Positions 28,389 through 45,337 of a DNA stretch of 45,426 nucleotides are shown piece after piece (the first letter of the stretch is position 1; every line of letters begins with the position of its first letter). Below the pieces are notes generated by a model. It searched no databases. It had not been told where the DNA came from and was given only the letters and a program-made list of their open reading frames with translations. The stretch comes from Melioribacter roseus (lineage in GTDB: Bacteria; Bacteroidota; Ignavibacteria; Ignavibacteriales; Melioribacteraceae): the NCBI GenBank assembly GCA_020722085.1, contig DYLN01000006.1:11978-57403 (forward strand), written 5' to 3'. Made by a program: the position numbers and the translations under genes.

Positions 28389-28402
28389 TTGTTCCTCCAT
28401 TC

Positions 28403-30652
28403 TTATTGAATTACTTCAAACGAAGTCGAAATTAAATCGGCAGAATTTCCTCCTATCATTACATAAAATCTGCCGGGTTCTACAACTTTTTTCAACTCCG
28501 CATTTAAGAATGAGAGCATATCGGATGTGATCCTAAAACTTACGGTTCTCTTCTCACCGGCTTTAAGTTTTATTTTCTGAAAACCTTTTAATTCTTTAAC
28601 CGGAAGAGTAACACTTGCAAATTCGTCCTGAACATATAACTGAACGACTTCTTCGCCGTCAACATTTCCCATATTAGCAACGTCCACAAAAACGTAAAGT
28701 GAATCATTGGCTGAAATATTTGGTTTATCTACGCGAATATCAGAATAATTAAATGTGGTATAGCTCAAGCCAAAACCGAACGGATAAAGAGGTGTGCTTG
28801 GAGAATCAATGTATCTCGATGTATACTTTTCATCATCCACAGCCGGTCTGCCGGTACTTTTTTGATAATAGTAAATCGGTATCTGTCCGGTAGATCTTGG
28901 AAAAGTAACAGGAAGTTTACCGGAAGGATTGAATTCGCCAAACAAGACTTGAGCAACAGCGTTACCCGCTTGGTTTCCAAGATACCACGCTTCAACGATT
29001 GCCGGTATATTTTCTGAAATCCAGTTTATTGTTAAAGGTCTTCCGTTCATTAAAACAACTACAAGAGGAATGGCTGATTGGCTGAATGCCTGGTTGGTTG
29101 AATGAGCTGCATAGCACACCTCATATATTTTTTTAATTAACTTTTCTTGAACGCCGGGCAAATTTAGATTGGTTTTGCTTGCTGCCTCTCCAATCATTTC
29201 TCTGGATTCGCCTGCTACAAAAACCACAGCATCGGATTGTTTTACAATTTTTACTGCTTCTTCAAATCCTGAGGTATCGCTGTCATTAATGCCGCAGCCC
29301 TTTGCATAATTTACTTTTATTTTTTCCCCGAGAAGATTTCTAATTCCCTCCACAACAGTGACAGCATCTTCGGGTTTACCTGCTGCCGACCATGATCCAA
29401 GCATATCATTCGGACTGTCTGCCAGCGGACCAATAACAGCTATCGATTTAATTTCTTTTTTCAGCGGGAGTAAATTGTTTTCATTTTTTAAAAGTACAAT
29501 TGATTCCCTTGCAAGCTGCAATGCAACACTGTCTTTATACTTTTGCGAAGGAACATTTTTCTTAAAGTATTCTGTGTCAATATAAGGATTTTCAAAGAGA
29601 CCGAGTTTAAATTTCATTCTCAAAACATTACGAACCGATTTATTAATTTGCTCTTCGGTTATCAATCCTTCTTCTACAAGATTTTTAAGATTGGGCGAAT
29701 AAACATTTCCATCAATAGTATCGCCTACCATATCAATGTCAACACCGGCAGTGAAAGATTTTAAGGCGGCTTCTTTTTTATCTTTTGCAAAACGATGATT
29801 AACCAGCTCACCAATGGAATTATAGTCACTTATTACAACGCCATCCCATTCCCACTCATTTCTTAAAATTTGGGTTAAAGTATAATAATTTGCGGAAGCA
29901 GGGATGCCGTTAAGATCGTTAAAAGCACTCATAATTGATGCGGCACCGCTTTTAACTGCAGCATAAAATGGAGGGAGATAAACACTGCGGAGGGTTCTAT
30001 CGGAAATATCCACAGTATTATAGTCTCTGCCTCCTTCAGCGCCTCCGTAAGCAACATAATGTTTAGCACACGCAGCAATTTTAGTTTTGTCTTTCAAGTC
30101 ATCGCCTTGAAAACCTTTTACTCTTGCTGCTGCCATAACACTTCCCAAATAAGGATCCTCGCCAGCACCCTCCATAATTCTTCCCCATCTTGGGTCTCGG
30201 GCAATATCGACCATTGGCGCATAAGTCCAGTGTGTTCCGGCTGAAGCTGCTTCAAATGCTGCAATTTCACATGCTTTCCGAACAAGAGTTGGATTCCAGC
30301 TCGAAGCCTCAGCAAGGGGAATCGGAAAAATTGTGTTGTAGCCGTGTATTATGTCGTTTGCAAATAAAAGAGGGATTCCCAATCTTGTTTCTTCAACAGC
30401 AATCTTTTGTATCCTGTTTGATTCTTTGGCTCCGCGGATACCGATTAAAATAGAACCAACTTTTCCTTCTCTTATCAGATTCTCTTCATCTTTATCAACG
30501 CCAACAATTTGCACAAGCTGCCCAATTTTTTCATCCAATGTCATTTTGGATAAAAGCTCGTCTATTTTAGCATCGTATTGCTGCTGCGCGAAGGAAAAAA
30601 CAAAAAGCGGGTAGATAATAAACGTATAAACAATAAAAGAAATTTTTTTCAT
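28403..30652 (-). CDS. GH3 beta-glucosidase, exported
   Basis: I start it at MKKISFIVYTFIIYPLFVFS (30652), 749 residues, because this gives a clean signal peptide; an in-frame ATG nine codons earlier is possible. The GH3 N-barrel shows MTLDEKIGQLVQ, PIPLAEASSWNP, GRIMEGAGEDPYLGSVMA, ACAKHYVAYGGAEGGRDYN and the nucleophile in DGVVISDYNS (Asp276). The alpha/beta sandwich (SIAVIGPLADSPNDMLGSWS; FVAGESREMIGEAASK) and a C-terminal FnIII domain (GEEVVQLYVQDEFASVTLPV) follow. The layout is that of BglX. Beside two GH144 genes it probably cleaves beta-1,2-gluco-oligosaccharides such as sophorose. Around residues 515-531 it has an extra low-complexity insert (AAHSTNQAFSQSAIP) where relatives read straight into VVVVLMNGRPL. 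Confidence 0.93.
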   Translation of the reverse strand: MKKISFIVYTFIIYPLFVFSFAQQQYDAKIDELLSKMTLDEKIGQLVQIVGVDKDEENLIREGKVGSILIGIRGAKESNRIQKIAVEETRLGIPLLFANDIIHGYNTIFPIPLAEASSWNPTLVRKACEIAAFEAASAGTHWTYAPMVDIARDPRWGRIMEGAGEDPYLGSVMAAARVKGFQGDDLKDKTKIAACAKHYVAYGGAEGGRDYNTVDISDRTLRSVYLPPFYAAVKSGAASIMSAFNDLNGIPASANYYTLTQILRNEWEWDGVVISDYNSIGELVNHRFAKDKKEAALKSFTAGVDIDMVGDTIDGNVYSPNLKNLVEEGLITEEQINKSVRNVLRMKFKLGLFENPYIDTEYFKKNVPSQKYKDSVALQLARESIVLLKNENNLLPLKKEIKSIAVIGPLADSPNDMLGSWSAAGKPEDAVTVVEGIRNLLGEKIKVNYAKGCGINDSDTSGFEEAVKIVKQSDAVVFVAGESREMIGEAASKTNLNLPGVQEKLIKKIYEVCYAAHSTNQAFSQSAIPLVVVLMNGRPLTINWISENIPAIVEAWYLGNQAGNAVAQVLFGEFNPSGKLPVTFPRSTGQIPIYYYQKSTGRPAVDDEKYTSRYIDSPSTPLYPFGFGLSYTTFNYSDIRVDKPNISANDSLYVFVDVANMGNVDGEEVVQLYVQDEFASVTLPVKELKGFQKIKLKAGEKRTVSFRITSDMLSFLNAELKKVVEPGRFYVMIGGNSADLISTSFEVIQ
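29071..29104. repeat. Quasi-tandem TGGYTGA(A)T repeat inside the GH3 gene
   Basis: The plus strand reads TGGCTGATTGGCTGAAT, GCC, TGGTTGGTTGAAT: repeated 8-9-base units inside coding DNA. On the minus strand it encodes HSTNQAFSQSAIP, an insert not expected in GH3 enzymes between the Rossmann strands before VVVLMNGRPL. The total length keeps the frame. Confidence 0.55.
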
Positions 30653-30685
30653 GTGCGTATATAAAAAGTAAAAGTGCATAAAAAT

Positions 30686-32035
30686 TTATTTTGTATTTTG
30701 CTTTGTAAAGCCCAGCTTCTGCAATCCATTTACAACGATAGGATCTTTCATAAAATATTTCCAGACGAAGCCATTATAATAGTTTTCAATCATCAGAACT
30801 ATCGGTCCTTCATCTAAACCTAAATAATCTTTATCATACCAATTAACGGTCGGATTAAATGCATCGTAAAGTCCGTACCGGCCCCACAATCCTCGTGAAC
30901 CATATTTTTCTCTGATATTTATTAAAGTAGGAATACAAATTTCTGGCGCAAACGGGATTGAAGCTGCTACAGAATAAGGAGCTAAGGTACCGTCGTCAAA
31001 TGTTGAATCTGGACCAGATGTACCCCTTGCAGAATAACCCCAAAATTTCTTTTCATCAAAGTTATATTTGCTGCCAGGCCCGTCGGATGCACTTAGTCCC
31101 CAAGTCAGACTGTCATAACCGGTCCATCCGTTTGGATTTTCAATTGCATATTGTCTTTGAACGTACGTCGCTCTTCTTGAATTTTCAAAATAATCTATCC
31201 CTTTTACTTTCATATATGAGTCCGTCCAATTTCTCATATCCAAAAAAATCATGGAAAACTGATGAACAAACAACGCCGGAAAAACAACATGTCCTAATCC
31301 TTCATAAGGTTCTTTCCATTTGTAATAACTCAGCCAGGTTTCGTATCCCTTTTCAACATTCTGCATATCCATTCCTGCTGCAATTATATATAAAAACAAT
31401 GCTTCGGTATATCCCCACCATCCAAGTTTGTTAAAACCATTTTTAGATTCCCATCCCAACGAAATAGTGAACGGATACTGTGGTGAATCTTTTAAGGTAA
31501 ACCATTCCCAATCTGCTCTGTTTAATAACTGTTCCGATAACTTGCGTACCTGGGTTTCTTCTTGTGAGGACTGATTATAAAACTGTCGGGCAAAAATAAA
31601 ACTACAAAACAGAAGTCCCGAATCAATTGAAGAAAGTTCGCTATTCCAAAATCTTTTTCCGGTATTCATATCGAGGAAGTGATAATAAAAACCTTTATAG
31701 CCCGTTGCAAGAGAATCCAGCGATTGGTCAGAATTCCAAAAAAACCTTAAAGCTGCAAGGGTAAGATCAATTGCTTTTTCTCTTTCGATCCATCCTTTTT
31801 CGGATGCCAGCGCCCATATTGGAATTGCAAAAGCAACAGCAGCAATAGACGCAGGTGAATCTTTTGTGCTTCTATCTTTAACAAGACCATTATCGGGATT
31901 AATTTCGTTAATAAAATAAAGGAATGAACGATATTGCAGAGTATCGAGGAAAGCTTTTTCACTATTGCTCAAGGTTTTTTGAGCAAAAGAAAACTGCAGT
32001 GCTGCTAGACAAAAAAGGATAAATAATTTTTTCAT
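30686..32035 (-). CDS. GH144 family endo-beta-1,2-glucanase, exported
   Basis: A 449-residue protein with a signal peptide (MKKLFILFCLAALQFSFAQ) and one domain of the GH144/glycoamylase type (PF10091 family) filling the rest. Landmarks: FLDTLQYRSFLYFINEINPDNGLVKDRS, FLDMNTGKRFWNSELSSIDS, YTEALFLYIIAAG, GLSASDGPGSKY and the closing DEGPIVLMIENYYNGFVWKYF. Characterised GH144 enzymes cut beta-1,2-glucan to short sophoro-oligosaccharides. The gene is 33 bp upstream of GH3 on the same strand, with a paralogue just upstream. Lacking a sorting domain, this copy probably works in the periplasm on imported oligomers, while the paralogue works outside; this division is inferred. Confidence 0.88.
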   Translation of the reverse strand: MKKLFILFCLAALQFSFAQKTLSNSEKAFLDTLQYRSFLYFINEINPDNGLVKDRSTKDSPASIAAVAFAIPIWALASEKGWIEREKAIDLTLAALRFFWNSDQSLDSLATGYKGFYYHFLDMNTGKRFWNSELSSIDSGLLFCSFIFARQFYNQSSQEETQVRKLSEQLLNRADWEWFTLKDSPQYPFTISLGWESKNGFNKLGWWGYTEALFLYIIAAGMDMQNVEKGYETWLSYYKWKEPYEGLGHVVFPALFVHQFSMIFLDMRNWTDSYMKVKGIDYFENSRRATYVQRQYAIENPNGWTGYDSLTWGLSASDGPGSKYNFDEKKFWGYSARGTSGPDSTFDDGTLAPYSVAASIPFAPEICIPTLINIREKYGSRGLWGRYGLYDAFNPTVNWYDKDYLGLDEGPIVLMIENYYNGFVWKYFMKDPIVVNGLQKLGFTKQNTK

Positions 32036-32096: not shown

Positions 32097-34514
32097 TTAT
32101 TTCTGCAAAATCATTTTACCGGATAATACTTTATCAGCTACCTTGATTGTGCAAATATAAACTCCTGAACTAACCGGTTGGCTGAAGTTATTATCTCCAT
32201 TCCATTTTATTGTATTAATACCCGAATTGACTTTACCTTCAAATAAAGTTTTTATTCTTCTGCCAAGGATATCAAGGACATCAATTGTAACAACTTGAGA
32301 CGACGGAATAGAAAACTCAATTGTTGTTGAGGAATTAAACGGATTTGGATAGTTACCCAGTAGCTTAAAATCCGAAGGTAGTGTATTTTTTTCTTCGTCA
32401 ACACCAACGTCAGTAGAATCTGGAACAAAACCTATTGCATCCAGCATCGGTTGAATTTCGGGATTTGCCATAAAGTTTTTCCACAATAATTGAGAACGGT
32501 AATTTTCTATCATTATTATGATTGGTCCCTCGTCTATTGCGAGATAACTTTGAGCAAACCAGTTGTATTTCAAATTAAAAGCATCCTTAAAGCCGTAAGT
32601 CCCCCAAAGACTTCCGCCGTATTCATAATAAAAACTCTTCAGCGCATCCATAGATTCTTTAGGTGTATAAGGAAAAGAAGAGAGAGCCGCAGTAGGAGAT
32701 ATTGTTCCATTGTCTTTATTGCCGGAAAAATCGGGTTCATGTGCTAAATAACCAAATGGATTATCGCTTGCCGTTAATCCCCATGTATCGGAATCATAAC
32801 CGGGGAATTTATGCGGATTATCAATACAATATGCCCTGTTGATTAAAGTATGATTTCTGTTATTTATAAAATAATTTGTATAGGCATCCCGTTTACTCCG
32901 CGGATCGAAACCGAGAAAAGAATAATGAGCAAAGAAAAGCGGACCGCCGTAATCCCAGCCGACTTCTAAAGGAATTCCGTAAAACGACTTGCCGTTAACA
33001 TAATCATGACTGCTTGCCCATCCATCGTGATATAATGAAGCCGGAACCGAATGAGTTGGCGAAGCAATTGCAAGAAGATAGGTAATCATTGTTTCATTCC
33101 AGCCGATGAGCGGAAAGTTCATTTCCCACTTATAATTTGGTGACCAATGCCAGTAAAGATAATTGCCGTTGTCTTTCCTGTACCAATCCCATTCAACAGA
33201 TTCCCAAATTGAAGTTATTAAATTTCTGATTTGTTCTTCTTCAGAAGTATTTTGATTGAAGTATTGTCTTGCAGCTAATAACCCCTGAATCATATAAGCA
33301 GTTTCAACGAGATCGCCGCCGTCATCTTTAGGGCTAAACGGAATTACTTTCCCTGTAGTACCATTCATCCAATGAGGGAATGCACCGTGAAATCTATCGG
33401 CTTTTGTTGACAGGAAATTTAATATGGTCAGCATTCTTGAAACACCTTGATCTCTGGTAATAAATCCTCTTTCAATTCCAACCAATATTGCCATTACTCC
33501 AAATCCCGAGCCGCCGGTCGTAACAATTTCATCCGAGCCTAATCGTTCACGCGCCATTCCCGAAACTGGATGCGCATAATCCCAAAAATATTTGAAAGTA
33601 GCTTGCTGAACCATATCAAGCAAAACACTGTCGGGTTCCGAAGTTGTTGATGCAGTTGCTTCTTCACTTAAAAGAGACTCATTACCGCTTAAATCGTATG
33701 CAGATATTTTGTAGCTGTAAGTTTTAGGAGGGATACCAGTATTATCATTATGATATGTAGCGTTTGCAGGCTTAAAAGCAATTATTTTATATTCATTTCC
33801 ATCAGAACGGTAAATTCTGTAACCGGCAAGATCGCTTTCATTATTTTGAGTCCATTTTAAAAGTATATAACTATGATAGCCGGTTGCCGAAAAACCCGTG
33901 GGAACTGCAGGCGGAATTGTATCGATATCACTAATCGACATGATTCTGATTTCATCAATGTAAAGTGTATGAAGAATTCCATCCGGGTAATCTTGTCCAA
34001 AATAAATTGTCTTTATTTCTTTTAGGTCAGCACTGCCGGGAGAATTTATAAAAGGAGTTAACGGAATAGAAACCTTAATCCATTTATCCTCATCAATTCT
34101 ATTAATAAAACTTGATAATTTTTGTTTAGGCGTTTTTCTGTTTTGTGTATCTTCAAGAAATACTGCCGGAAGCGCGGAAGAATCAAGCCGAGCAAGTGTA
34201 AACACATAAAAAGTTATTGAATCTTTGATTGTAACATCATGCGCTATCCAGCCAGCTTCCGCAACAGCCATTCCCCAGTTGCCACCAGCAACAGATTTCC
34301 ATCTTAATCTTAAAGAATTAATTCCAGAAAATTTATAATTAATATCTACTGGAAATTTAGTCCCGTCGTGTGTAAGAGCTAAAACACTTGGATTGCTATA
34401 AAAGCCAAAGCTTGGATCATAATAAGTATTATTCGGGCTGTCGCTGAAAAAGATATAATCCTGAGCATTAACCAAGGTTTGCAAAAACAAAAATATGATA
34501 AAAAATACTTTCAT
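32097..34514 (-). CDS. T9SS-secreted GH144 enzyme with FnIII domain
   Basis: An 805-residue protein. Signal peptide to ...TLVNAQD; an N-terminal beta domain like a carbohydrate-binding module (~20-195, ending TLYIDEIRIMS); a fibronectin III domain (~200-290, PTGFSATGYHSYILLKWTQN); a GH144 domain (~297-705) with FKYFWDYAHPVSGMARER, MNGTTGKVIPFSPKDDGGDLVETAYM, WGLTASDNPFGY and DEGPIIIMIENYRSQLLWKNF; and a C-terminal T9SS sorting domain (LLGNYPNPFNSSTTIEFSIP, ~725-805). It should be released or anchored at the surface, as the first enzyme to attack polymeric beta-1,2-glucan. A 107-bp gap separates it from the GH43 gene, so an internal promoter is possible. Confidence 0.9.
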   Translation of the reverse strand: MKVFFIIFLFLQTLVNAQDYIFFSDSPNNTYYDPSFGFYSNPSVLALTHDGTKFPVDINYKFSGINSLRLRWKSVAGGNWGMAVAEAGWIAHDVTIKDSITFYVFTLARLDSSALPAVFLEDTQNRKTPKQKLSSFINRIDEDKWIKVSIPLTPFINSPGSADLKEIKTIYFGQDYPDGILHTLYIDEIRIMSISDIDTIPPAVPTGFSATGYHSYILLKWTQNNESDLAGYRIYRSDGNEYKIIAFKPANATYHNDNTGIPPKTYSYKISAYDLSGNESLLSEEATASTTSEPDSVLLDMVQQATFKYFWDYAHPVSGMARERLGSDEIVTTGGSGFGVMAILVGIERGFITRDQGVSRMLTILNFLSTKADRFHGAFPHWMNGTTGKVIPFSPKDDGGDLVETAYMIQGLLAARQYFNQNTSEEEQIRNLITSIWESVEWDWYRKDNGNYLYWHWSPNYKWEMNFPLIGWNETMITYLLAIASPTHSVPASLYHDGWASSHDYVNGKSFYGIPLEVGWDYGGPLFFAHYSFLGFDPRSKRDAYTNYFINNRNHTLINRAYCIDNPHKFPGYDSDTWGLTASDNPFGYLAHEPDFSGNKDNGTISPTAALSSFPYTPKESMDALKSFYYEYGGSLWGTYGFKDAFNLKYNWFAQSYLAIDEGPIIIMIENYRSQLLWKNFMANPEIQPMLDAIGFVPDSTDVGVDEEKNTLPSDFKLLGNYPNPFNSSTTIEFSIPSSQVVTIDVLDILGRRIKTLFEGKVNSGINTIKWNGDNNFSQPVSSGVYICTIKVADKVLSGKMILQK

Positions 34515-34621: not shown

Positions 34622-36418
34622 TTACTCTACTTTTATAGCTTTTGTTCTCTTACCGACACCACCTTCATTAAATGCTTCTATCTGAAAATAGTAGGAAGCA
34701 TTCCTGTCTAATCCGGACATGAAATATTCATTTTGTGCATACACAAGAATATTATTGTAAAGTTTATGAGGCGAAGTTCCATAATAAATTGTATATCCGA
34801 TTGCATTATCAACCTGCTGCCATTTTATCCATGCACTCCTAGGTTCGCTTTCACCGCGAAGTATTTCAAAACTTTTCACAGTATCTGGTAAAGCTTTATC
34901 TGCTTTACCGAAAATCCGAAATCCGCTTACTGCAAACTTTCCCGTTGGAACATGCACGTTTTCTATTTTAAGATACCTGGCTCGCACAGGTTTATCCAAT
35001 TCCACATAATCGTGGGGCGTATCTCTATTACTCTTACTTTTATCAACTGTTACATCCCACTTTTTTCCATCGCTTGAGTGATAAATGATATAACGATGAT
35101 ATATATTAGATTGTTTTCCAATTAATTCCGCATTCTGATCAGCATAGTTTACTTGGACAGCATATACGATACACTTTTCTCCTAAATCAGAAGCCAACCA
35201 TTCACCGGCTTTGCCTGTTGCGGCGGACCAATATGTCCTTATGTTTTCGTCGACAGCAAAATTAGGAACATATCCTCCAAGCGTAGAAGAAACACGTACA
35301 GGTTTGTTATAATTCAACAGCATCCAGCCGGCAAATCCGCCTGTAGAATCATTCTCTTTCCGGGGGGAAAGAAAATGCGGGTAGTCGCCGTAAGCAGTAT
35401 TACAAAACAGAACGCCATCTTTATCAAATCCTGCAGGCCACAGGCCAATCCGCCGTTCCATATTATTTTTAACAGAAATTCTAATTGTAGCTACATGCCA
35501 CCAATTTCCGTTTAGATCCTGAAAAGTTGAACCATGACCGGCTCCTTGAACAAAACCTCCGGGTTTATATGAAAAAGGATTATGTTTTTGATAAACGAAA
35601 GGACCAAGCGGATTATCACCCACATAAACACCGTCTGCATAACCTCTAAATTCAGTCCCAGGTGCTGCATACTGAAGATAGTACTTCCCATTATATTTAT
35701 TCATCCAAGCTCCTTCAATAAAAGGGCGAAGGAATACATTATCGTTATATTCGCCAAATCGTTCCCAGCCGTGAATATCGTCATGCAAGCGTATTAATTC
35801 TTTTCGTTCACCAATGGGTTGAAATGTACTGCGGTTAATTTCCTGTCCGTAAATCGGGTAAACATTACTTGAGCCGAAGTAGATATAAAGACGTCCGTCA
35901 TCATCAAGTAAAAAAGCCGGGTCCCAAGCCCCAACCTGAAAAGAATCCACTGCCTCTTTCCAACCTGCCTGCGTGCCTACGGCAGGCAGGTCATCCATTG
36001 TTGGATTTGTACTCATCCACAACGGAAAAGTTTTAGTATGTGTTGAGCCAAGAAGAAGCAATGTATCGCCCAAAGACACTGCCGCAGGTGCGCAGAGGTC
36101 GTCGTAAACATGGTGATACGGTTTCAGAAATGAACGAGATACAAATTCCCAATTCATTAAATCTTCACTCCACCAGTATCCATATTGATTGGTTGAAAAG
36201 AGGTAATATTTATTTTTAAATAAAACAATTACCGGATCTGCAGTAGTTCTATGATTTCCTTTTACATTAAAATTGGGAATAGCATTGTATGCATAATCAA
36301 TATTAAGCGGATTGCAATAAGTTTTTTGTTGAGCTGCGGACTGCTCAAATGTTGTTAAAAATAATGAAACTACGAAAAAGATAAACACTAAATACTTCTT
36401 TTCGATAAAATTCATCAC
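34622..36418 (-). CDS. GH43 family glycosidase with discoidin and FnIII domains
   Basis: A 598-residue protein with a signal peptide (...TTFEQSAAQ). The five-bladed GH43 propeller (~30-355) has the expected three acids: Asp61 in TTADPVIVLFKNKYYLFS (base), Asp166 in VGAWDPAFLLDDDGRLYIYF (pKa modulator) and Glu235 in RPFIEGAWMNKYNGKYY (acid). A F5/8 discoidin domain (~375-505) and a fibronectin III domain (~515-598) follow. GH43s are usually arabinofuranosidases, xylosidases or galactan exo-hydrolases; the linkage cut here is unclear. Residues 143-152 (DLPAVGTQAG) are encoded by a palindromic repeat inserted in frame. It begins 31 bp after the PPIase gene. Confidence 0.88.
   Translation of the reverse strand: MMNFIEKKYLVFIFFVVSLFLTTFEQSAAQQKTYCNPLNIDYAYNAIPNFNVKGNHRTTADPVIVLFKNKYYLFSTNQYGYWWSEDLMNWEFVSRSFLKPYHHVYDDLCAPAAVSLGDTLLLLGSTHTKTFPLWMSTNPTMDDLPAVGTQAGWKEAVDSFQVGAWDPAFLLDDDGRLYIYFGSSNVYPIYGQEINRSTFQPIGERKELIRLHDDIHGWERFGEYNDNVFLRPFIEGAWMNKYNGKYYLQYAAPGTEFRGYADGVYVGDNPLGPFVYQKHNPFSYKPGGFVQGAGHGSTFQDLNGNWWHVATIRISVKNNMERRIGLWPAGFDKDGVLFCNTAYGDYPHFLSPRKENDSTGGFAGWMLLNYNKPVRVSSTLGGYVPNFAVDENIRTYWSAATGKAGEWLASDLGEKCIVYAVQVNYADQNAELIGKQSNIYHRYIIYHSSDGKKWDVTVDKSKSNRDTPHDYVELDKPVRARYLKIENVHVPTGKFAVSGFRIFGKADKALPDTVKSFEILRGESEPRSAWIKWQQVDNAIGYTIYYGTSPHKLYNNILVYAQNEYFMSGLDRNASYYFQIEAFNEGGVGKRTKAIKVE
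35964..35990. repeat. CCTGCCTGC...GCAGGCAGG palindrome inside the GH43 gene
   Basis: CCTGCCTGC (35964-35972) and GCAGGCAGG (35982-35990) are exact inverted arms around GTGCCTACG. The 27-bp length is a multiple of three, and on the minus strand it encodes about nine residues (LPAVGTQAG) in a loop before the second catalytic Asp of GH43. It looks like a REP-like palindrome that landed in coding sequence and was tolerated. Confidence 0.75.
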
Positions 36419-36449: not shown

Positions 36450-38276
36450 CTACTGAGCTATATTTTTACTCTGCTGCCATATATCATACCAACCCGAGAA
36501 CTGTTCGGTATAAGGAACCGCAAATATTTCCCCTCCGAAGCCCATATACCTTACAACAACTAAATTCATAAAGATATCTTCGATTCCTTTTAAAACATCT
36601 TCATTGATTTTAACACCGTACTTCAGAGCCAATCTGGCATTGTATTCATTTACGTATTTTTCAAATTTTTTAAGTGTAACCTGCATTACCAATCGTTCTT
36701 TAACATCGTTATAGCTTAACGCTTTACCTGTCGTATCCTGTTTTTTATCGATCAGTTGAAATACCGAATAACCTTCGTCAAGTTTTATTGGTCCGCATAC
36801 ATCTCCAATTTTCATTTGAGCAGCTTTTCTTCCCAATTCTCCATGCGTGAAAACTGGGAAATAACCAAACACACCGCCTCTTTCTTTTAGAGAATCTCTT
36901 TGAGTATATTTCCTTGCAAGTTCTTTTATATCCTTTCCTTTGGCAAGTTCATTCATTACAGTTTCAATTACCGAAAGGCTGTCATTCAGTACTTCCGCAA
37001 TGTTCACCATCTCCACAGGAATATTTTTTCCTTTTTCTTCCTTATATAATGAGTAAGCTTCTTCGTCGCTTACTCTTAGGGAGTCGAACATATTCACCAT
37101 CAGCATTTTTGATAAATAAGAATCTTCCCACATGCGCATATATTTCTGCACGTCTGGAATGTTTTCCAATCCTCGTCTGATGCCTTCATCGGTAAGTAAT
37201 TCATCCTCGATAAACTTTCTTATATAAGATGACAAGGATGCTCTTATGCTTATATCCGATAAATCTTTCACAAAAAGCCCATCCTGACTTAACTGATTCA
37301 CAAAATATTTCAGCTTTACCTGTTTTTCACCAAGGTTGATGAAATTTTTTGCAGCTAAATCTGGCGTTATAAATTGCAATACGGAACTTACTTCGTCATA
37401 TCCTCGCAAAAAATATTTATCATTACCGGAAATCTGATTTGAATATTTTTCTTTGAATTTAGTGATAAAAAGCTCAGTGAGCTTTTCAAAGATTTCTTTA
37501 TCGGCGGCGGCTCTGTGACTGCTAAAAAAATTGCGATAGTATCGGAGGTAACTTTTATAAGTTGCCCGTGCTTCCACAATTCTTTTAACATCTTCAAGAA
37601 CATTATCGCCGCTTTTTAATTCCGGATTGTTTTCGATTCCCGTCAGCTTTAAAATATAATATCCGTCTTTCGACTCTAAAGGTGCAGTAAATTCATTAAT
37701 TCCGAGATTGTAAACGCTGTCTTCAATTTCCTTTTCCATTGTTCCAAAAGTTATAGTTCTAGGAACTTTTTGATTTTTAACTTCGGGTCGAAGTGATAGC
37801 AATGAATCGAACGAGGCACCCTTTTCAAGCTGCGAATAAATGTATTTCAATTCCTCCCTATCTTTTGAATAAATGAACTTAACTTTGAGAAGCTTTTTAA
37901 TTCTTTCAACGCCCTCTTTTATTTCATCATTAGAATACGAGGCTTTATTTTTTACTTCACGTTCATACAAAGCGTCTCTAACGAACATATTTCTCAAAGG
38001 GCTGATAATATTTTTGAATACTTCCAGGGTATCGTAGCCTTTTTCCCTGGCATTAAGAGACAGGAGTTTTTCGGCAATAAGCTGATTTAAAAATTCCTGT
38101 TTTATAAGCATAGAATCTTTTTTCTGCAAGAGATTGGGATGAACACTAAAATCAAATCTTTCTTTAAATTCCGATTCATAAATTTTGTAATTACCGACTT
38201 CTGCAACCACTTTATCTTCCTGTGCATGAAACAATTCAAATGTTATAATCAGTAGAATAAAAATTCTAATTAGCAT
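36450..38276 (-). CDS. Periplasmic parvulin-type peptidyl-prolyl isomerase (SurA/PpiD-like)
   Basis: A 608-residue protein. Signal peptide MLIRIFILLIITFELFHA; an N-terminal chaperone region (VVAEVGNYKIYESEFKERFD; FLNQLIAEKLLSLNAREKGYDT); a first parvulin-like segment (~125-215, FGTMEKEIEDSVYNLGINEF, APLESKDGYYILKLTG); a helical middle; and a second, clearer rotamase domain (~405-510, LARKYTQRDSLKERGGVFGY, GELGRKAAQMKIGDVCGPIK, DEGYSVFQLIDK). Such proteins escort outer-membrane barrels. AAGGTGAT precedes the ATG. It lies between the PorV-like gene and GH43; its position suggests it serves the receptor and PorV-like products nearby. Confidence 0.88.
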   Translation of the reverse strand: MLIRIFILLIITFELFHAQEDKVVAEVGNYKIYESEFKERFDFSVHPNLLQKKDSMLIKQEFLNQLIAEKLLSLNAREKGYDTLEVFKNIISPLRNMFVRDALYEREVKNKASYSNDEIKEGVERIKKLLKVKFIYSKDREELKYIYSQLEKGASFDSLLSLRPEVKNQKVPRTITFGTMEKEIEDSVYNLGINEFTAPLESKDGYYILKLTGIENNPELKSGDNVLEDVKRIVEARATYKSYLRYYRNFFSSHRAAADKEIFEKLTELFITKFKEKYSNQISGNDKYFLRGYDEVSSVLQFITPDLAAKNFINLGEKQVKLKYFVNQLSQDGLFVKDLSDISIRASLSSYIRKFIEDELLTDEGIRRGLENIPDVQKYMRMWEDSYLSKMLMVNMFDSLRVSDEEAYSLYKEEKGKNIPVEMVNIAEVLNDSLSVIETVMNELAKGKDIKELARKYTQRDSLKERGGVFGYFPVFTHGELGRKAAQMKIGDVCGPIKLDEGYSVFQLIDKKQDTTGKALSYNDVKERLVMQVTLKKFEKYVNEYNARLALKYGVKINEDVLKGIEDIFMNLVVVRYMGFGGEIFAVPYTEQFSGWYDIWQQSKNIAQ

Positions 38277-38374: not shown

Positions 38375-39391
38375 TTAGAAACGAATTCCTACAGTAAACC
38401 TATGTGTACCATTTAATCTGCCGTAATCTGCCCAAGCATAGTCAAAACTTAAGTTAGTGTTTCCCGAAAAGCCGACTTTAGCGCCTGCTCCAAGTACAAG
38501 TCCTCCCTCAGCATCTTTTAAGAATAAGTCGCGGTAACCGCCTCTAACAGCGAACGTATTGAGGAACAAAAGTTCACCACCGATATTGATTCTTTCGGTA
38601 TTATCGTTTGTGTGGATAGCATCGGATGCAACAATCAATTGATTCCAATTGCTGATTTGCAGTCTATACGACAGTCCCACTCTAAATAGTGTCGGCAGGC
38701 TGTAAGATCCCATTCTTAATTCTGCGGGGAGTCTGGGATGATCGCCGTGTTTTGTCGGATCAGCATCATAATTAAAATAAACATCTCTTCCGCTGTAAGA
38801 AGCCCGCGGACCAAAATTGGACACACTTGCACCAACTACCAAACCATCAATTGCTGTTTGATATTGCATACCGAAGTCAAATGCTACATCAACTAAATTT
38901 GTATTATAAATTGTTTCTTGTATATATTTAACCGCTAATCCTGCGGAAACCCTATCGGTAAGCATTACACCATAAGCCAATCCCAAACCTAAATTTGTAA
39001 CCTGATAATAAAGGCCGGAATTCTTTTCTTTTTCTACAGTTGTTATTTCAATATCGCCGGAATTTAACGAAGTAATTTGTAACGCAATAGTTCCTATTCC
39101 TTCCAGATTTAATGCAGCTATTGCATAATTATATTTTATATCTGCCAGCCACTGGTTATAAGTAAATTGAATGTCGATCCCTTGTAATTTACCTAAGCCG
39201 GCAGGATTATAAAAAGCTGCAGATGCTTCTTCGGAAAGGGAAACACCGGCATTCCCTAAACCAACCAATCTGGAACTTGGTTCTATCTTTAAGAATTGCC
39301 CAATTGTAGTTCCAACTTTACTCTGGCTGTAAAGTCGATTGACCGGTACGAAAAGAAGCAAACACGCAAATATTATACAAAGATTTTTCAT
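38375..39391 (-). CDS. PorV/PorQ-family outer-membrane protein
   Basis: The start is taken at MKNLCIIFACLLLFVPV (39391), 338 residues with a signal peptide ending ...NRLYSQ; the frame is open further but that part overlaps the preceding gene. The first ~60 mature residues carry the PorV/PorQ signature (TIGQFLKIEPSSRLVGLGNA, GVSLSEEASAAFYNPAGL). The rest is an outer-membrane barrel of alternating strands ending NGTHRFTVGIRF. PorV shuttles T9SS cargo to the attachment complex; PorQ relatives also serve in T9SS. It starts 20 bp after the 1083-residue gene, itself probably a T9SS cargo, which hints at a dedicated shuttle. Confidence 0.87.
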   Translation of the reverse strand: MKNLCIIFACLLLFVPVNRLYSQSKVGTTIGQFLKIEPSSRLVGLGNAGVSLSEEASAAFYNPAGLGKLQGIDIQFTYNQWLADIKYNYAIAALNLEGIGTIALQITSLNSGDIEITTVEKEKNSGLYYQVTNLGLGLAYGVMLTDRVSAGLAVKYIQETIYNTNLVDVAFDFGMQYQTAIDGLVVGASVSNFGPRASYSGRDVYFNYDADPTKHGDHPRLPAELRMGSYSLPTLFRVGLSYRLQISNWNQLIVASDAIHTNDNTERINIGGELLFLNTFAVRGGYRDLFLKDAEGGLVLGAGAKVGFSGNTNLSFDYAWADYGRLNGTHRFTVGIRF

Positions 39392-39410
39392 ATTGATCTC
39401 GTGAGCTTTC

Positions 39411-42400
39411 TTATTTAATAATTGCAAATTTACCGATGTAGTCATCCACGCCGGGAGCTTCAACATGGTAGATATAAAGTCCCGGAGCTATTTCTAAATT
39501 ATCCTTAGAACGCAAATTCCATGCTACATAATTCTGGAAGCCCGAATCATGATGCAGCGTTTGAACTAATTCTCCGTTAATAGTATATATTCGGATTGTT
39601 GCATTCTGAGGCAGACCCCGAAATTCGATTCTTCTGTCGCCGCGTCCGGATTGTGCGTATGGAGCCTGCTCAAACGACGCCATTCCTAAATAAGGGTTGG
39701 GTACAACATAAGGTTTTTCATTATAACCATTTTTTAATGCTGCTTGATCAATATAAGAAGAATCAGTCTCAAATCTGAATACATCGGACCTATTAAAAGG
39801 AACTGCGACAGCAAGTTGATAAACATCTCCTTTTCGAGGGAATATTGCGTTTTCATATTTAGGTCCTATTACTGCATTAACAGTTATCCTCCAGACGGGC
39901 AGCCTGCTGCCAGTTGGAGTAAGTGCAAGAATATCGATAAACTCATTATCTTTACTAATTGTTTGATTCCCATCGGCATCAAAAAACCTGAAATCTACAG
40001 GAAATGTTTCCCCCGCTTTGGTTGTGCCAATAATTTTGAATTTAGTATAAACGGCAGGCACGCCGGGTGCAGCAACGGAAGTATCTACAACCACATCATC
40101 AAATATAATAGAATAATCTGCCGGATAGTTAGGTCGTTCTGCATTTGAAGAAATTGTGGTTTTTGTAATTCTCGCATCTAAGACCATATTGGTTTTACTG
40201 CTGGGTAAAAATCCAGTATTAGCTGAATCTATTTCCAGACGAGGGGAAGTAAATATAACGGGCATTATCCCCGACCCTACGGGACCTCTGCCTAAAGCAA
40301 GCAAATCATTCCCGTTAACAAAAACAGTATCTTCTCTTCCGTTGGTAACATCGTACATTTCATAAGTGCTTGCTCTAATTGAATCTTTAGGGGATTTGAA
40401 TCTAATTTCAAAAGTATGATTCTTTGGAACAAGATCCGGATTTGGAATTACTATTTCCACACGTCCTTTTCCAAAGCCCTGAGAATGTTCAAGATTCCTA
40501 TAAGTACCTGGTTTATATCCGGGTGCTTGAGCATTGGGATAAACTTCAACAACATTTTTCGGAAGAATCAAACCCCCTCTTAAAGTCTGGTTAACAGAAA
40601 TAGCATTTTCGGAAGGATAAATATCCAGCGCCTCGTTTCCTCTGTCGTAAGCAGTAACGGCATAAAAATAACGCTGACCGTTAACTACCGTAGTATCGGT
40701 ATATACATGCTTAATTCCGGAGTCATTACCAAGGAAGTATTGAATTCCTTCAACAGAAATATTACTGTAATCACGAACTCCGTTATCAAGATCAAATACC
40801 GCCAGCGGCTTTCCGTGACCTATCGGTCCTAATCCCTGAGCATCATAAATTATTTGAGGATCCAAAAAACTTTCGTCTGTGCTGCGGTAAATTTTATATC
40901 CTTCAAAGTCGTTTGTATTCGACACCGGATCGAACGCATCTTCTGAGTTGTTACTCCAGGTAAGTCTGACAAACCCATCCCCAGCGTAAGCATTCACTGT
41001 AGGCAAAGGCGGAGGAGTGGAAAATTGATAGTTAGCATTATAAATTCTTTGAACGATAGTAACGGTTTTTCTCAATTGAAAAAGATCAACGCCAAAAGCT
41101 AAAGCAAGGCTAAATCTTTCTCTTTTTGCAGTATTCAAATAAAACGGACCTGAAGCAAAAAAGAATCCTATATTATAATTTACAACACCCAGTGAGTTTT
41201 CAAATGGAGTTGGTCCGCTCCACATGTTGTATAATTTTTGTGGCCATGTTTTAGCATCCATGTAAAATACAATATCATCTGTCTGACCAATTGCCCCGGC
41301 TCCTACCCTAATTCTATTTAATTTAAATCCGGTTAAACCAATCTGGTCGGATTCGTCAATATCTGTTTTGTCAAAATTCCGCTCACCATCTGTAGGGATA
41401 CCATCATCTTCGCCCGTGTCGTGCGTGCCTCTTATTCCGTCACCACCGGTATCATTATTCAATGTCCAGTCTAAGTCTTCATCTCCCGTCCACCAAGTCC
41501 CTGCAATATAAGCCGGTCGCTGTTCAATTGGTCCATAATGTTTTTCAAATTTTACCATGTTATAATGGTTATTAACATAATTCAAAATCGCATCACGTCC
41601 TTCTATTTTTTGACCGGGACCACCGTCCCTTTTTTCATCGACAATACCGTCTTCATCGCTATCTCTTCCGTCGGTATCATTGCCGGGTGTCTCCAGGTAA
41701 GCATATCCACAGTAACCTGTGGGTCCAAACTGTCCATGACCGTTGTAATCCCATGTATAGACAAGGTTCATTCCGTTTGTAGTATCGAAGTAAGCGGCAT
41801 CATCATCGCTTTCATAGACAAGATCGTAAGGACTTAACGAACCACCGCCAACGCCGGAGTCATTATACAAACCAAATATTACATCATAATTATAAACAGT
41901 TGTTCCTTCATTCGAAATATCATAATGCCAGAAGATAACATCTCTTGCCTGAATATTAGACCATTGGAAACCCCGCTGCTCTACTTTTAACGCCATCCCT
42001 CTTCTTGTACTATCGCGAAAGTCTGGATAGAAATTCCACTTACCATAATAGTCATCATCATATACACAAAAACTCTCCTGGTCTGCATTCGGCTCTTTAC
42101 CAAAATATCCGTTCCAGCTGCCTCTCCATCCCGGATCATCAGGATCGTTTTCTTTGTCCGGCCAGCTATCCGGCCAGGTTCTCGGGTCGTAACTTACAGC
42201 GGGAGATCTACCAATATTTATTGCCGGATTAAGTTGAAGAAACCCGGGTCGCGGGTTAAATCTTTGAAGTCTTCCTGTTTTAGGATTTACTTCTTCTCTT
42301 TCACGGTAACCTGTTTCCATTATGTAAAAATCTTGAAGTTTACCTTTAACATTTTCCTGAAGTTTGGCAAGAACGAACGGCGTTACGCCGTCTGTATAAT

Positions 42401-42662
42401 TTTCCAGAGAGCCTTTTGGCCATTCCATTGAGTGAAAAATCGTATAGTCGGGATTAACTTGATAATCACCAACCATACCGTAATTAAAAAACATGGTTCT
42501 AATTCTATTCGCATCATGCGTACCCTGTCTTACGTAGTCTTCTCCGCCCCTTTGATCTTGGGGAACAACCGGAAGGTACTGGGCAATCAAACTATAATTA
42601 AAGATAAATATGATTACCGCAGTAAATTTCAAGAGCGGCAATATTTTTTTGAGACTCATCAT
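39411..42662 (-). CDS. Large secreted surface protein with FnIII domain and T9SS-like C-terminus
   Basis: A 1083-residue protein with a signal peptide (...FIFNYSLIAQ). Residues ~28-525 form a conserved-looking region of unknown fold (RTMFFNYGMVGDYQVNP; DVIFWHYDISNEGTTVYNYD). It contains two acidic Ca-binding-like stretches (DTDGRDSDEDGIVDEKRDGG ~330; DTGGDGIRGTHDTGEDDG ~410). A fibronectin III-like part lies around 555-690 (DGFVRLTWSNNSEDAFDP; RYFYAVTAYDRGNE). The C-terminus (YVVPNPYLGMASFEQAPYAQ to DDYIGKFAIIK) is a divergent T9SS sorting domain with PNPY for PNPF. It begins 2 bp after the receptor's stop codon. The family has no function known to me; with the TonB-dependent receptor it may take the place of a SusD-like binding partner. 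Confidence 0.75.
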   Translation of the reverse strand: MMSLKKILPLLKFTAVIIFIFNYSLIAQYLPVVPQDQRGGEDYVRQGTHDANRIRTMFFNYGMVGDYQVNPDYTIFHSMEWPKGSLENYTDGVTPFVLAKLQENVKGKLQDFYIMETGYREREEVNPKTGRLQRFNPRPGFLQLNPAINIGRSPAVSYDPRTWPDSWPDKENDPDDPGWRGSWNGYFGKEPNADQESFCVYDDDYYGKWNFYPDFRDSTRRGMALKVEQRGFQWSNIQARDVIFWHYDISNEGTTVYNYDVIFGLYNDSGVGGGSLSPYDLVYESDDDAAYFDTTNGMNLVYTWDYNGHGQFGPTGYCGYAYLETPGNDTDGRDSDEDGIVDEKRDGGPGQKIEGRDAILNYVNNHYNMVKFEKHYGPIEQRPAYIAGTWWTGDEDLDWTLNNDTGGDGIRGTHDTGEDDGIPTDGERNFDKTDIDESDQIGLTGFKLNRIRVGAGAIGQTDDIVFYMDAKTWPQKLYNMWSGPTPFENSLGVVNYNIGFFFASGPFYLNTAKRERFSLALAFGVDLFQLRKTVTIVQRIYNANYQFSTPPPLPTVNAYAGDGFVRLTWSNNSEDAFDPVSNTNDFEGYKIYRSTDESFLDPQIIYDAQGLGPIGHGKPLAVFDLDNGVRDYSNISVEGIQYFLGNDSGIKHVYTDTTVVNGQRYFYAVTAYDRGNEALDIYPSENAISVNQTLRGGLILPKNVVEVYPNAQAPGYKPGTYRNLEHSQGFGKGRVEIVIPNPDLVPKNHTFEIRFKSPKDSIRASTYEMYDVTNGREDTVFVNGNDLLALGRGPVGSGIMPVIFTSPRLEIDSANTGFLPSSKTNMVLDARITKTTISSNAERPNYPADYSIIFDDVVVDTSVAAPGVPAVYTKFKIIGTTKAGETFPVDFRFFDADGNQTISKDNEFIDILALTPTGSRLPVWRITVNAVIGPKYENAIFPRKGDVYQLAVAVPFNRSDVFRFETDSSYIDQAALKNGYNEKPYVVPNPYLGMASFEQAPYAQSGRGDRRIEFRGLPQNATIRIYTINGELVQTLHHDSGFQNYVAWNLRSKDNLEIAPGLYIYHVEAPGVDDYIGKFAIIK

Positions 42663-42664
42663 TT

Positions 42665-45337
42665 TTAGTTACTCCTAAATGAAATGCCAAATTCAATTCT
42701 ACGGGGTTCATTCAGTCTGCTAGGGTCAAGAGGCTCACCAGGTCGTAAAGTTAAAGATGTTGTGGGATTTCCAGTGTCTGAATAAACAAACCCGTTGCTG
42801 TAATTTTGATTTAACAAATTAATTATGCGTAGAAAAATGCTGAAATTTGCAAAGCCAAAAGTGAGATATTTTTCGGCTCGTAAATCGACAGTTGTATAAC
42901 TTGGTTTTCTGCCCGAATTCCTCTCCTGTTCGGTCATAAAACCTACTCCTAATTCGGGTGTATAAGGCTGTCCGGAGGCATATCGTATTATAGTGCTAAT
43001 AGAAAAGTCACCCGGCACCTGATATATTGCGGTAATATTTAAGGTATGTCTTTGATCCCAGTTAAATGGGATATCCCGGGGTCGCGGGTCCTGACCTCCT
43101 AATGCTCTATCAGCAGTTTCTCTCGGATCGCTGGAATTTCCGTTTGCAAATATGAGGCTATAATCAACAGAAGCTCCGAAATTTTTGAAAGGTCTTTGTA
43201 CAAGTGAAAAAGTTAATCCGGAAACACTTCCGTAATCAACATTTGTGTTCCTTGCATATTGTCCGAAATTATATGTCTCGATAATTTCCGTCCCCAGAAG
43301 ATCTCTAATATCTTTATAGAAAAAAGTCAAATCAACACCAAGATTTTCATTTAACTCCTGCTTTAATCCAACTTCATATTGCACGGTTATTTCGGGACCA
43401 ACATCCGGATTGCCCAAATATTCCTGGGTATATGTAGCCCCTCCGGTTAGAAACTCGAGAACCTGATAATTAGCATTTTGATATAAAGCACTGTATTGAG
43501 GCATCTGATAAAAATGACCGTAAGAAAAATGCAGCGTTGACTTATCGGTTAGCGGAAATCCAAACCCCAGACGCGGTGCTAAAGTTTGTTTAATCTTAGC
43601 TTTTTTTAGAACCGATCCAGGAACATTTTTTATTGAATTAGCAGGATTCTGCAGATTGCTCGGCACGTACGCATTAGGATCGAAGTACTCATATCTTAAC
43701 CCTGCTCTAATAACAAAATCTCCCAGTTCAATTCTATCCTGTATATATGCGGCTGCTTGTTTGGGATAATATGTTTCGACCTTTTTAAAACGAGGATCGA
43801 CCGGATCTATCTCTTTGGGCTGCAGTTTTACAATGCCCGTTTTGGGGTCGGATTGTATCACAAGTTGTCCCGGCGGACCAAATTTTAATTGGTTTGTTTG
43901 CCCTTCGATACCTGCTTCAATATAATTTGTCTTGTCAGCCTGCCAGGTAAAATCGATTTTTGCGAGACCAAAATTTGTCAACTGGGAATTTCTGCCGTAA
44001 TCGATACCCGATATAACAGCACCATATTCATAACCTGTAATACTTTTAGGATAGTCAGCCTGCAAATACCTCGGATCATAAATGGATTCGTATTTATATT
44101 CTTTATAGTCATAATAATTATGCCGCAAGCTGATTTTATAAAACATCGAGCTTGAGATAGTGTGAGTTATGTCTATACCGTGGTTGATAGAAAAAGTCTT
44201 CCAGTCTTTTTGGCCGTCAGGGTTCAATCTAAAAGCAAAATTATAACTTTTGCCCCAAAGGTCATTTATAATACCGACATAACTTATTGATATTTTATCA
44301 AAAGAGTTATTAGTTATTTTAAACTGCCCGCTCCATTCATTATAGGGTCTCATTGAAACTTTTTTCCTGTCGCCGGTAGGATAAACTATTCCGCGAGCAA
44401 TATCATTTGTATCGGTCGGTAGAAATCTTCTTTCGCCATATAAAAAACCGTTGTTAAAATACCGTCTTCCGCTTAGAAGAAAAGTAGTATTTGGGAAAAA
44501 AGTAGGTCCGCTGACAGTAAGCTGGTAATTTTGAATAGTCTGGGGCAGAAAATCCTGGTTGTTGGGATAATCAGTGTTATCTAACGGTAAATAATCGCCG
44601 CCGTAGATTTCACCTGAAAAAGCAAAATGATCACCGCCGCTTTTTAATGTTGCATTTATAACTCCCGACATTGCCTGTCCGTATTTGGCATCAAACGTAC
44701 CGCTGACAACCGATACTTCTTCAAGAATTGAACGGTCTAGTGAGAGGCTCGATGAATTATCATAAGGATTATTAATGCTTACTCCATCAACTTGAAATTG
44801 GACTTCACCTGCTCTTCCGCCGCGTATATGGAATTCGTCTCCGGCTTGAACAATACCCGCCTGGAGATTAATAATATCGGTTAAACTTTGTACGGGAAGA
44901 GCACTTATTTCCTCTGAGGTTACGGTTTTAACCGAACTAGTCTGGTTAAATTCAACCACAGGCTTTTTAGCAACTACATATACGGTTTGAGCTTCGATAG
45001 TACTCGGATTAAGCTGAACATCATTAAAAGTTGTCTTGTCGGCTGAAATCTGAATATTGGCAACCACTTCAGCATTATATCCAATGTATTGGTAGCGTAC
45101 TGTATATGTTCCGGGACGTAAATTAAGAACAGAATAATAACCATCAATATCGGCAGCCGCACCCATTGTAGTTCCCACCACTATAATATTCGCCCCAACC
45201 AAGGGTTCTCCGGTACTTTTATCAGTGACCCTGCCAGATAACTTACCTGTTTGTGCCCAGTTTAACTGTGAATAAAATATAGTAAGTATTATGAGTGAAG
45301 GGAACCACATTCTTCTTATTCTTAACAAATTTTTCAT
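42665..45337 (-). CDS. TonB-dependent receptor with carboxypeptidase-regulatory-like domain
   Basis: The start is taken at MKNLLRIRRMWFPSLIILTI (45337), 890 residues; an in-frame ATG 12 codons earlier is less suited to a signal peptide. The mature N-terminus is a CarboxypepD_reg-like domain (GKLSGRVTDKSTGEPLVGAN, YYSVLNLRPGTYTVRYQYIGYNA). The plug follows (ISALPVQSLTDIINLQAGIV, DEFHIRGGRAGEVQFQVDGV, GQAMSGVINATLKSGG), then a 22-strand-type barrel. It ends LNEPRRIEFGISFRSN, a typical barrel close. It is somewhat shorter than SusC proteins and no SusD gene follows. It imports a ligand too large for porins using TonB energy; the ligand is unknown. It heads a tight run with the 1083-residue protein and PorV-like gene. 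Confidence 0.92.
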   Translation of the reverse strand: MKNLLRIRRMWFPSLIILTIFYSQLNWAQTGKLSGRVTDKSTGEPLVGANIIVVGTTMGAAADIDGYYSVLNLRPGTYTVRYQYIGYNAEVVANIQISADKTTFNDVQLNPSTIEAQTVYVVAKKPVVEFNQTSSVKTVTSEEISALPVQSLTDIINLQAGIVQAGDEFHIRGGRAGEVQFQVDGVSINNPYDNSSSLSLDRSILEEVSVVSGTFDAKYGQAMSGVINATLKSGGDHFAFSGEIYGGDYLPLDNTDYPNNQDFLPQTIQNYQLTVSGPTFFPNTTFLLSGRRYFNNGFLYGERRFLPTDTNDIARGIVYPTGDRKKVSMRPYNEWSGQFKITNNSFDKISISYVGIINDLWGKSYNFAFRLNPDGQKDWKTFSINHGIDITHTISSSMFYKISLRHNYYDYKEYKYESIYDPRYLQADYPKSITGYEYGAVISGIDYGRNSQLTNFGLAKIDFTWQADKTNYIEAGIEGQTNQLKFGPPGQLVIQSDPKTGIVKLQPKEIDPVDPRFKKVETYYPKQAAAYIQDRIELGDFVIRAGLRYEYFDPNAYVPSNLQNPANSIKNVPGSVLKKAKIKQTLAPRLGFGFPLTDKSTLHFSYGHFYQMPQYSALYQNANYQVLEFLTGGATYTQEYLGNPDVGPEITVQYEVGLKQELNENLGVDLTFFYKDIRDLLGTEIIETYNFGQYARNTNVDYGSVSGLTFSLVQRPFKNFGASVDYSLIFANGNSSDPRETADRALGGQDPRPRDIPFNWDQRHTLNITAIYQVPGDFSISTIIRYASGQPYTPELGVGFMTEQERNSGRKPSYTTVDLRAEKYLTFGFANFSIFLRIINLLNQNYSNGFVYSDTGNPTTSLTLRPGEPLDPSRLNEPRRIEFGISFRSN

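Follow-up and report, generated by a model that had tools for sequence, protein, structure and literature searches.

SusD/RagB proteins are recognized by a lipoprotein anchor and a mostly helical fold with tetratricopeptide repeat (TPR) units. Although carbohydrate gene clusters are numerous in Ignavibacteriales, SusCD genes are scarce there (PMC10576277). In the type IX secretion system (T9SS), PorP-like barrels anchor proteins with a type B C-terminal domain (CTD) (PMC9143113), and dedicated PorP/SprF shuttles have been described, whereas type A signals are described as being all served by one PorV (PMC12618676). The CTDs of PorU and PorZ are uncleaved (PMC11285876), and in the beta-barrel assembly machinery (BAM) complex of Bacteroidota the FadL-like BamG holds the extracellular protein BamH (PMC12611786). 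Here we report on a three-gene unit in a 45,426-nucleotide stretch of Melioribacter roseus DNA (hereafter the window; assembly GCA_020722085.1, contig DYLN01000006.1, positions 11,978 to 57,403). It encodes a TonB-dependent receptor, a predicted surface protein that we call MID, and an outer-membrane barrel of the PorV/PorQ family. We judge it rather probable that this trio is an outer-membrane oligosaccharide-uptake unit, in which MID would be a T9SS-exported surface partner held by its own PorV-family barrel.

The three genes were found exactly where a first-pass annotation, made by a model from the sequence alone, had placed them:

42665 to 45337, minus strand: TonB-dependent receptor, 890 amino acids (aa) from the ATG at 45337, with CarboxypepD_reg, Plug and TonB beta-barrel domains
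39411 to 42662, minus strand: MID, 1,083 aa, predicted surface protein with a signal peptide
38375 to 39391, minus strand: PorV/PorQ-family outer-membrane barrel, 338 aa from the ATG at 39391

The receptor and MID genes are 2 bp apart, as the annotation had it. Its close spacing of MID and the PorV-like gene also holds, although the MID stop codon lies 19 bp and not 20 bp from the next ATG. On the upstream side of the receptor, the window reaches the end of its contig (C188).

To begin with the genome itself, nine trios of identical order and strand were found among the regions compared (contigs C188, C257, C146, C55, C123, C104, C283, C240, and C37). The middle proteins of C240 and C37, at about 700 aa, are shorter than the others and were assigned by position and tail. 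The three proteins diverge in concert across the nine trios, with Mantel r values of 0.76 for receptor and MID (p 0.0014), 0.91 for receptor and PorV (p 0.0002), and 0.75 for MID and PorV (p 0.0022). Because all nine come from one genome, species history does not explain this correlation, while duplication as a unit does. As a side observation, C283 (L064, 7813-11535) has a single receptor and a single PorV-like gene flanking two tandem MID-like genes. Contigs C139 and C158 (G000) both show receptor and tail matches with identical scores, and the assembly may hold a duplicated piece.

Five MID paralogues then served as queries against 84,980 species genomes, and 80 public loci were retained, picked solely by MID similarity. 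These span many lineages of the FCB group: Ignavibacteria, KSB1, Calditrichota, Eisenbacteria, Krumholzibacteria, Neomarinimicrobiota, Gemmatimonadota, WOR-3/Stahlbacteria, Delongbacteria, and Rhodothermus-type bacteria. Wherever upstream DNA was available, a receptor directly preceded MID (78 of 78; median gap, about 30 bp), and wherever downstream DNA was, a PorV-like gene followed it (77 of 77), mostly less than 60 bp away; in two loci (L130 and L145), a peptidyl-prolyl isomerase (PPIase) gene lies between MID and the PorV-like gene. Together with the nine paralogous trios and their correlated divergence, these neighborhoods bear out the earlier claim that the three genes form one unit. Six single-contig genomes of the class contain 55 PorV-family genes, of which 22 have a same-strand receptor upstream, against an expectation of 0.75 and a maximum of 5 in 2000 random draws. 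For 17 of the 22, a MID-type match stood directly before the PorV gene, while the other five had the receptor directly before it and a MID-like gene further upstream. This refutes the view that the neighborhood is due to chance or history alone, with no joint function, as the same order recurs in every locus with enough flanking DNA and in many lineages, nine paralogous copies exist, and the 22 pairs exceed expectation so widely. The second gene order (MID-like, receptor, PorV-family) was observed in five of the six complete genomes (G113, G119, G165, G032, and G151), with 331 to 659 bp from receptor to PorV-family gene, measured match to match.

MID is bound to the trio, and no full-length MID was seen outside one in the loci read. 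The receptor and PorV families, in contrast, also occur elsewhere: the genome under study has 23 receptor matches and 13 PorV-family genes over cut-off, and in the six single-contig genomes 93 receptors outnumber the 22 PorV-family genes with a receptor upstream. The first-pass annotation had named families occurring mostly apart as what would refute it; this is what we found for the receptor and PorV families and is not the case for MID. Of the 294 genomes sampled from the class, 290 had a MID match; the weakest of these matches rest on the shared tail alone.

A SurA/PpiC-like PPIase homologue was present in 20 of the 80 loci, in about half of these cases immediately following the PorV-like gene. 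In one clade (L126, L131-L133, L135-L137, L141, L151, and C257 of the genome under study), the isomerase gene lies directly behind the PorV-like gene, and its product is possibly a dedicated chaperone.

MID is not SusD. It has no SusD family match, no lipobox, and an all-beta model, and it thus departs from the SusD/RagB proteins in each hallmark tested (sequence family, lipobox, and helical TPR fold). Its signal peptide, judged by eye, ends in ..LIAQ-Y without a lipobox cysteine, and 20 of 79 homologues have any cysteine in residues 9 to 45, mostly within the signal peptide. In agreement with the first-pass description of the cassette as SusD-less, the genome has no match to PF07980, the sole SusD family used. 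Within the class, 17 of 61 genomes had a match to this family. Among 118 genomes of the phylum, MID was found in 0 of the 23 with six or more SusD matches, and genomes with MID had at most five. A simple presence-absence exclusion of the two was nevertheless rejected, since 26 of 52 MID genomes carry some SusD and only SusD-rich genomes are without MID. This last pattern fits the SusCD scarcity reported for the gene clusters of Ignavibacteriales (PMC10576277).

No Pfam family matched MID at E 0.1. An AlphaFold2 model of the protein, built from 79 sequences (pLDDT 89, pTM 0.80), is almost entirely beta. The following parts were distinguished, all on the minus strand:

41025 to 42554, minus strand: MID residues ~37-546, beta-supersandwich domain, by VIA structure comparison
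41634 to 41663, minus strand: residues 334-343, calcium-loop-like motif of the DxDxDGxxDE type
41346 to 41483, minus strand: residues 394-439, second conserved acidic stretch
40524 to 41024, minus strand: residues ~547-713, fibronectin type III (FnIII) domain, VIA Z 8.7-8.9, about 95 residues aligned, root-mean-square deviation (rmsd) 2.4-2.8
39414 to 39710, minus strand: residues 985-1083, T9SS-type CTD, closest to PorZ/PorU

The beta-supersandwich resembles accessory domains of glycoside hydrolase (GH) families GH15 (glucodextranase-type), GH94 (phosphorylases), and GH116 and of cyclic glucan synthase, with VIA Z scores of 19.9 (9ju0; rmsd 3.1, 266 aligned), 19.0 (1ug9), and 18.4 (8rf9) and a range down to about 15. 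Whole-chain Foldseek matches were multi-FnIII chains with a TM of about 0.08 and were discounted in favor of the VIA results. The FnIII domain and the calcium-binding-like acidic loops had both been claimed from the window's letters; the former was recovered by structure match without a Pfam match, and the latter are real, as ten acidic residues are invariant in the 79 homologues (D334, D336, E343, D394, D404, D408, E427, D434, E437, and D439). The full DxDxDGxxDE motif was present in 59 of the 79, compared to 4 of 304 open reading frames (ORFs) from regions of the same genome. Judging from these sequences, the conserved acidic loops probably bind calcium.

The divergent T9SS tail likewise proved to be there, in the form of a sub-threshold type A signal and a weak match to the PorZ C terminus. 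Compared by VIA, the tail matched PorZ (5m11) with Z 11.4, rmsd 2.2, 92 residues aligned, and 25% identity, over a range ending at residue 1083, and it matched the NCBIfam PorZ model weakly (E 3.7e-4). In a PDB profile search with 39 MIDs, PorU and PorZ were the sole T9SS chains, again with weak scores (E 0.19 and 0.76), and scans of the 39 proteins one by one gave a match to the PorZ model for 14 and to the PorU model for 9. No type B CTD model was matched in NCBIfam or Pfam scans of these 39 proteins, and no PorU peptidase match was found in MID. The domain combines an Ig-like CTD fold with a near-terminal lysine. The extra hairpin that marks the uncleaved PorU and PorZ tails (PMC11285876) was uninformative for MID, because the corresponding MID loop is no longer than that of some ordinary tails in the same genome.

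The third protein, annotated as PorV-like, is so by sequence and by fold. It scored 191.8 bits against NF033709 (PorV/PorQ family; cut-off, 90) and stayed below the equivalog cut-offs of NF033710 for PorV (72.4 versus 250) and NF033711 for PorQ (95.7 versus 220). Its model (pLDDT 91) matched best to the T9SS PorV chains 8gl6_F (Z 33.7), which is PorV in the SprA-PorV-RemA CTD complex, and 6h3i_F (Z 33.4). PorV lies within the FadL fold family, and one could thus envisage a FadL-type diffusion channel for small molecules, unrelated to the T9SS, with MID being exported otherwise. We consider this very improbable: FadL chains reach a Z of about 30, but PorV scores at the top with 22% identity versus about 15% for FadL, ahead also of BamG (about 26), and the gene always follows one for a protein with a T9SS-like tail. 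The SprA translocon gene is present in this genome (SprA_N, 154.8 bits; contig C161), as in all seven genomes tested (7/7). In a PorV tree, trio barrels did not form a single clean clade with respect to other PorV-family members, the branches being long and the placement unsure. The trio-independent PorV-family genes include the top-scoring PorV of each genome; here, a higher-scoring PorV-family gene on C137 adjoins a gene for a 1316-aa, PorU-sized, T9SS-tailed protein.

Such an arrangement on C137 would suit a barrel that is a transient shuttle only, handing MID to PorU, where the tail would be cut and MID released or linked to lipopolysaccharide (LPS) like type A cargo. The relation of the MID tail to type A tails of the same genome (hhalign, 92%) and the last lysine, K1083, invariant in 79 of 79 homologues, point in the same direction. 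However, a single PorV serves ordinary type A cargo (PMC12618676), whereas each MID has its own barrel gene, and PorZ and PorU, which have the closest tails, are uncleaved (PMC11285876). We regard exclusive shuttling as unlikely, if deserving of real weight. The PorV-type shuttle of the first-pass annotation is thus right as to PorV-like sequence and fold, but shuttle is possibly the wrong word: given that PorU and PorZ keep their CTDs, a permanent anchor is equally plausible.

The receptor had been called from its sequence as well, and both its Plug (PF07715, 48.0 bits) and barrel (PF00593, 102.9 bits) domains are over cut-off. Against the SusC/RagA model TIGR04056 it reached 72.7 bits, far under the cut-off of 368.25, and its N terminus is SusC-like. 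That this receptor and MID touch each other can be disputed. MID and its barrel could form a T9SS-delivered surface structure (an adhesin, enzyme scaffold, or binding protein) that is co-regulated with the receptor without touching it, the receptor importing the released product alone. Indeed, the nearest counterparts of the PorV-MID pairs are known T9SS pairs, most of the 93 TonB receptors are without MID, and 44 of 60 loci have a further T9SS-tailed gene upstream. Receptor and MID were never separated in 78 of 78 loci at a median gap of about 30 bp, though, and it is the receptor and PorV-like protein whose divergence correlates most strongly. We hold a non-contact arrangement to be improbable on balance.

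The upstream proteins just mentioned have type A T9SS tails and are encoded directly upstream of the receptor (44/60 trios; for example, L081, L096, L108, and L118, and in the genome under study C55, L061:15996-17648, and C123, L062:14656-16560). Some match the carbohydrate-binding module (CBM) families CBM9 or CBM4_9, and others have FG-GAP repeats. They are a likely candidate for a fourth cassette member.

Behind the window trio, on the same strand and with small gaps, follow a PPIase, a GH43 protein, two PF10091 proteins, and a GH3 enzyme:

36450 to 38276, minus strand: SurA/PpiC-like PPIase, a frequent trio accessory
34622 to 36418, minus strand: GH43 protein with F5/8 type C and FnIII domains, same strand as the trio, 31 bp gap
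32097 to 34514, minus strand: PF10091 protein with CBM30 and a T9SS type A tail
30686 to 32035, minus strand: PF10091 protein, which we take to be GH144-like; its counterpart lies directly 3' of the trio in most window-like loci
28403 to 30679, minus strand: GH3 beta-glucosidase, BglX model over cut-off

The same run continues with a sulfatase-like fragment, a 1054-aa F5/8 type C protein, and GH2, so that a receptor unit and several glycosidases lie in one gene run, as in a polysaccharide utilization locus. Among 93 genes following other trios were 15 PF10091, 14 sugar-type solute-binding proteins, and 12 GH94. The gene content beside trios follows the MID clade. PF10091 or GH94 was nearby in 23 of 24 window-like trios (MID identity of at least 49%) versus 5 of 40 others, and solute-binding proteins in 1 of 24 versus 19 of 40; the C257-type clade has a PPIase, a solute-binding protein, ABC permeases, and GH130. 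From this context we infer that the substrate of the window clade is probably a beta-glucan fragment. PF10091 includes the GH144 beta-1,2-glucanases. In Bacteroides xylanisolvens, a GH144 gene lies within a SusCD locus (PMC11739564). Family and precedent together lead to the guess, worth testing, that the substrate is possibly beta-1,2-linked.

Two members of the run deserve mention in their own right. The sulfatase-like fragment (27888-28400, minus strand) is a 170-aa ORF matching the start of a sulfatase domain and an SGSH C-terminal part, the middle seemingly missing. The 1054-aa protein (24720-27884, minus strand), with F5/8 type C as its sole recognized domain, is possibly an undescribed enzyme or binding protein.

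In the mechanism that we propose, MID would be exported by Sec and then by the T9SS via its CTD, and the co-encoded PorV-family barrel would take it from the SprA translocon and most likely retain its tail, providing a protein anchor in place of the lipid anchor of SusD. On the outer surface, MID would sit over or beside the receptor and capture the glycan with its beta-supersandwich/FnIII ectodomain, whose acidic loops would probably bind calcium, and the TonB-dependent receptor would import the oligosaccharide. In the window clade, PF10091, GH94 (in relatives), and GH3 enzymes would process the substrate. The first-pass annotation had proposed an uptake complex in which a T9SS-delivered protein replaces SusD. 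This is partly supported: the unit, the non-SusD nature of MID, and a context pointing to glycan uptake all stand, while contact with the receptor, T9SS export of MID, and its pairing with this particular barrel belong to the proposed part.

Several points weigh against this mechanism. The MID tail remains below the cut-off of the type A model TIGR04183 (16.5 versus 23 bits). The beta-supersandwich is also found in enzyme parts without a proven binding role. The invariant residues of MID are common to all clades and hence cannot set substrate specificity; they may instead serve folding or a constant partner. Some trios, such as those of Neomarinimicrobiota and Gemmatimonadota, had no sugar genes among the families searched, and the exclusion between SusD and MID is confounded by phylogeny. 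For the still broader proposal of a widespread TonB-dependent nutrient uptake class of the FCB group, with a T9SS-exported, calcium-dependent glycan binder tethered by its own PorV-family barrel as a receptor lid replacing SusD and with trio clades serving different glycans, we see the balance as even.

Elsewhere in the window lies the gene for a 1809-aa adhesin-like protein (16583-22012, minus strand). An ice-binding-like adhesive domain and a T9SS type A tail accompany SdrD_B, DUF11, and a thioester domain (PF08341), a domain type known chiefly from Gram-positive adhesins. At 10215-12947 (minus strand), Patatin, POTRA, and Omp85 are fused in a type Vd autotransporter-like protein.

No published description of the trio was found in the open-access papers searched, the Caldithrix genome paper and a lanthanide paper included. 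With nine copies here and MID matches throughout the class, it qualifies as a candidate for the receptor system that Ignavibacteriales seemed to lack, and it offers a marker of glycan uptake loci in uncultured lineages. The trio further hints at a diversification of PorV-branch T9SS carriers into dedicated anchors, something so far documented for the PorP/SprF branch. Type B cargo with PorP/SprF (SprB-SprF and PG1035-PorP; PMC9143113, PMC12618676) is similar in that a T9SS-tailed surface protein has its own barrel gene next to it and several paralogues exist, but the tail of the trio is type A/PorZ-like, its barrel belongs to the PorV branch, and the unit includes a TonB receptor. In the T9SS attachment complex, PorU-PorV and PorZ-PorQ likewise bring a protein with a retained CTD together with a PorV/PorQ-family barrel, and PorZ and PorU are the best matches of the MID tail. 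Unlike them, MID has a beta-supersandwich and FnIII ectodomain, many copies per genome, and a receptor alongside. BamG-BamH (PMC12611786) shares the principle of a FadL-like barrel anchoring an extracellular protein of a carbohydrate-binding-type fold, although BamH is a lipoprotein and its complex builds the outer membrane. In vitamin B12 uptake by BtuB-BtuG, a TonB transporter also has a non-SusD surface partner, yet BtuG is described as a surface lipoprotein and not as T9SS-tailed (PMC10404256). With SusCD pairs, finally, the trio has in common a CarboxypepD_reg TonB receptor, an adjoining gene for a surface partner, multiple paralogues, and glycosidase neighbors. It differs in that the partner is all-beta, non-lipidated, and T9SS-type, that the third gene encodes a PorV-family barrel, and that the receptor score falls far short of the SusC/RagA cut-off. 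The trio would thus function like SusCD without belonging to it, as the SusD features tested are absent and the receptor stays below the SusC cut-off, and it is probably an undescribed way of sugar capture standing in for SusC/SusD.

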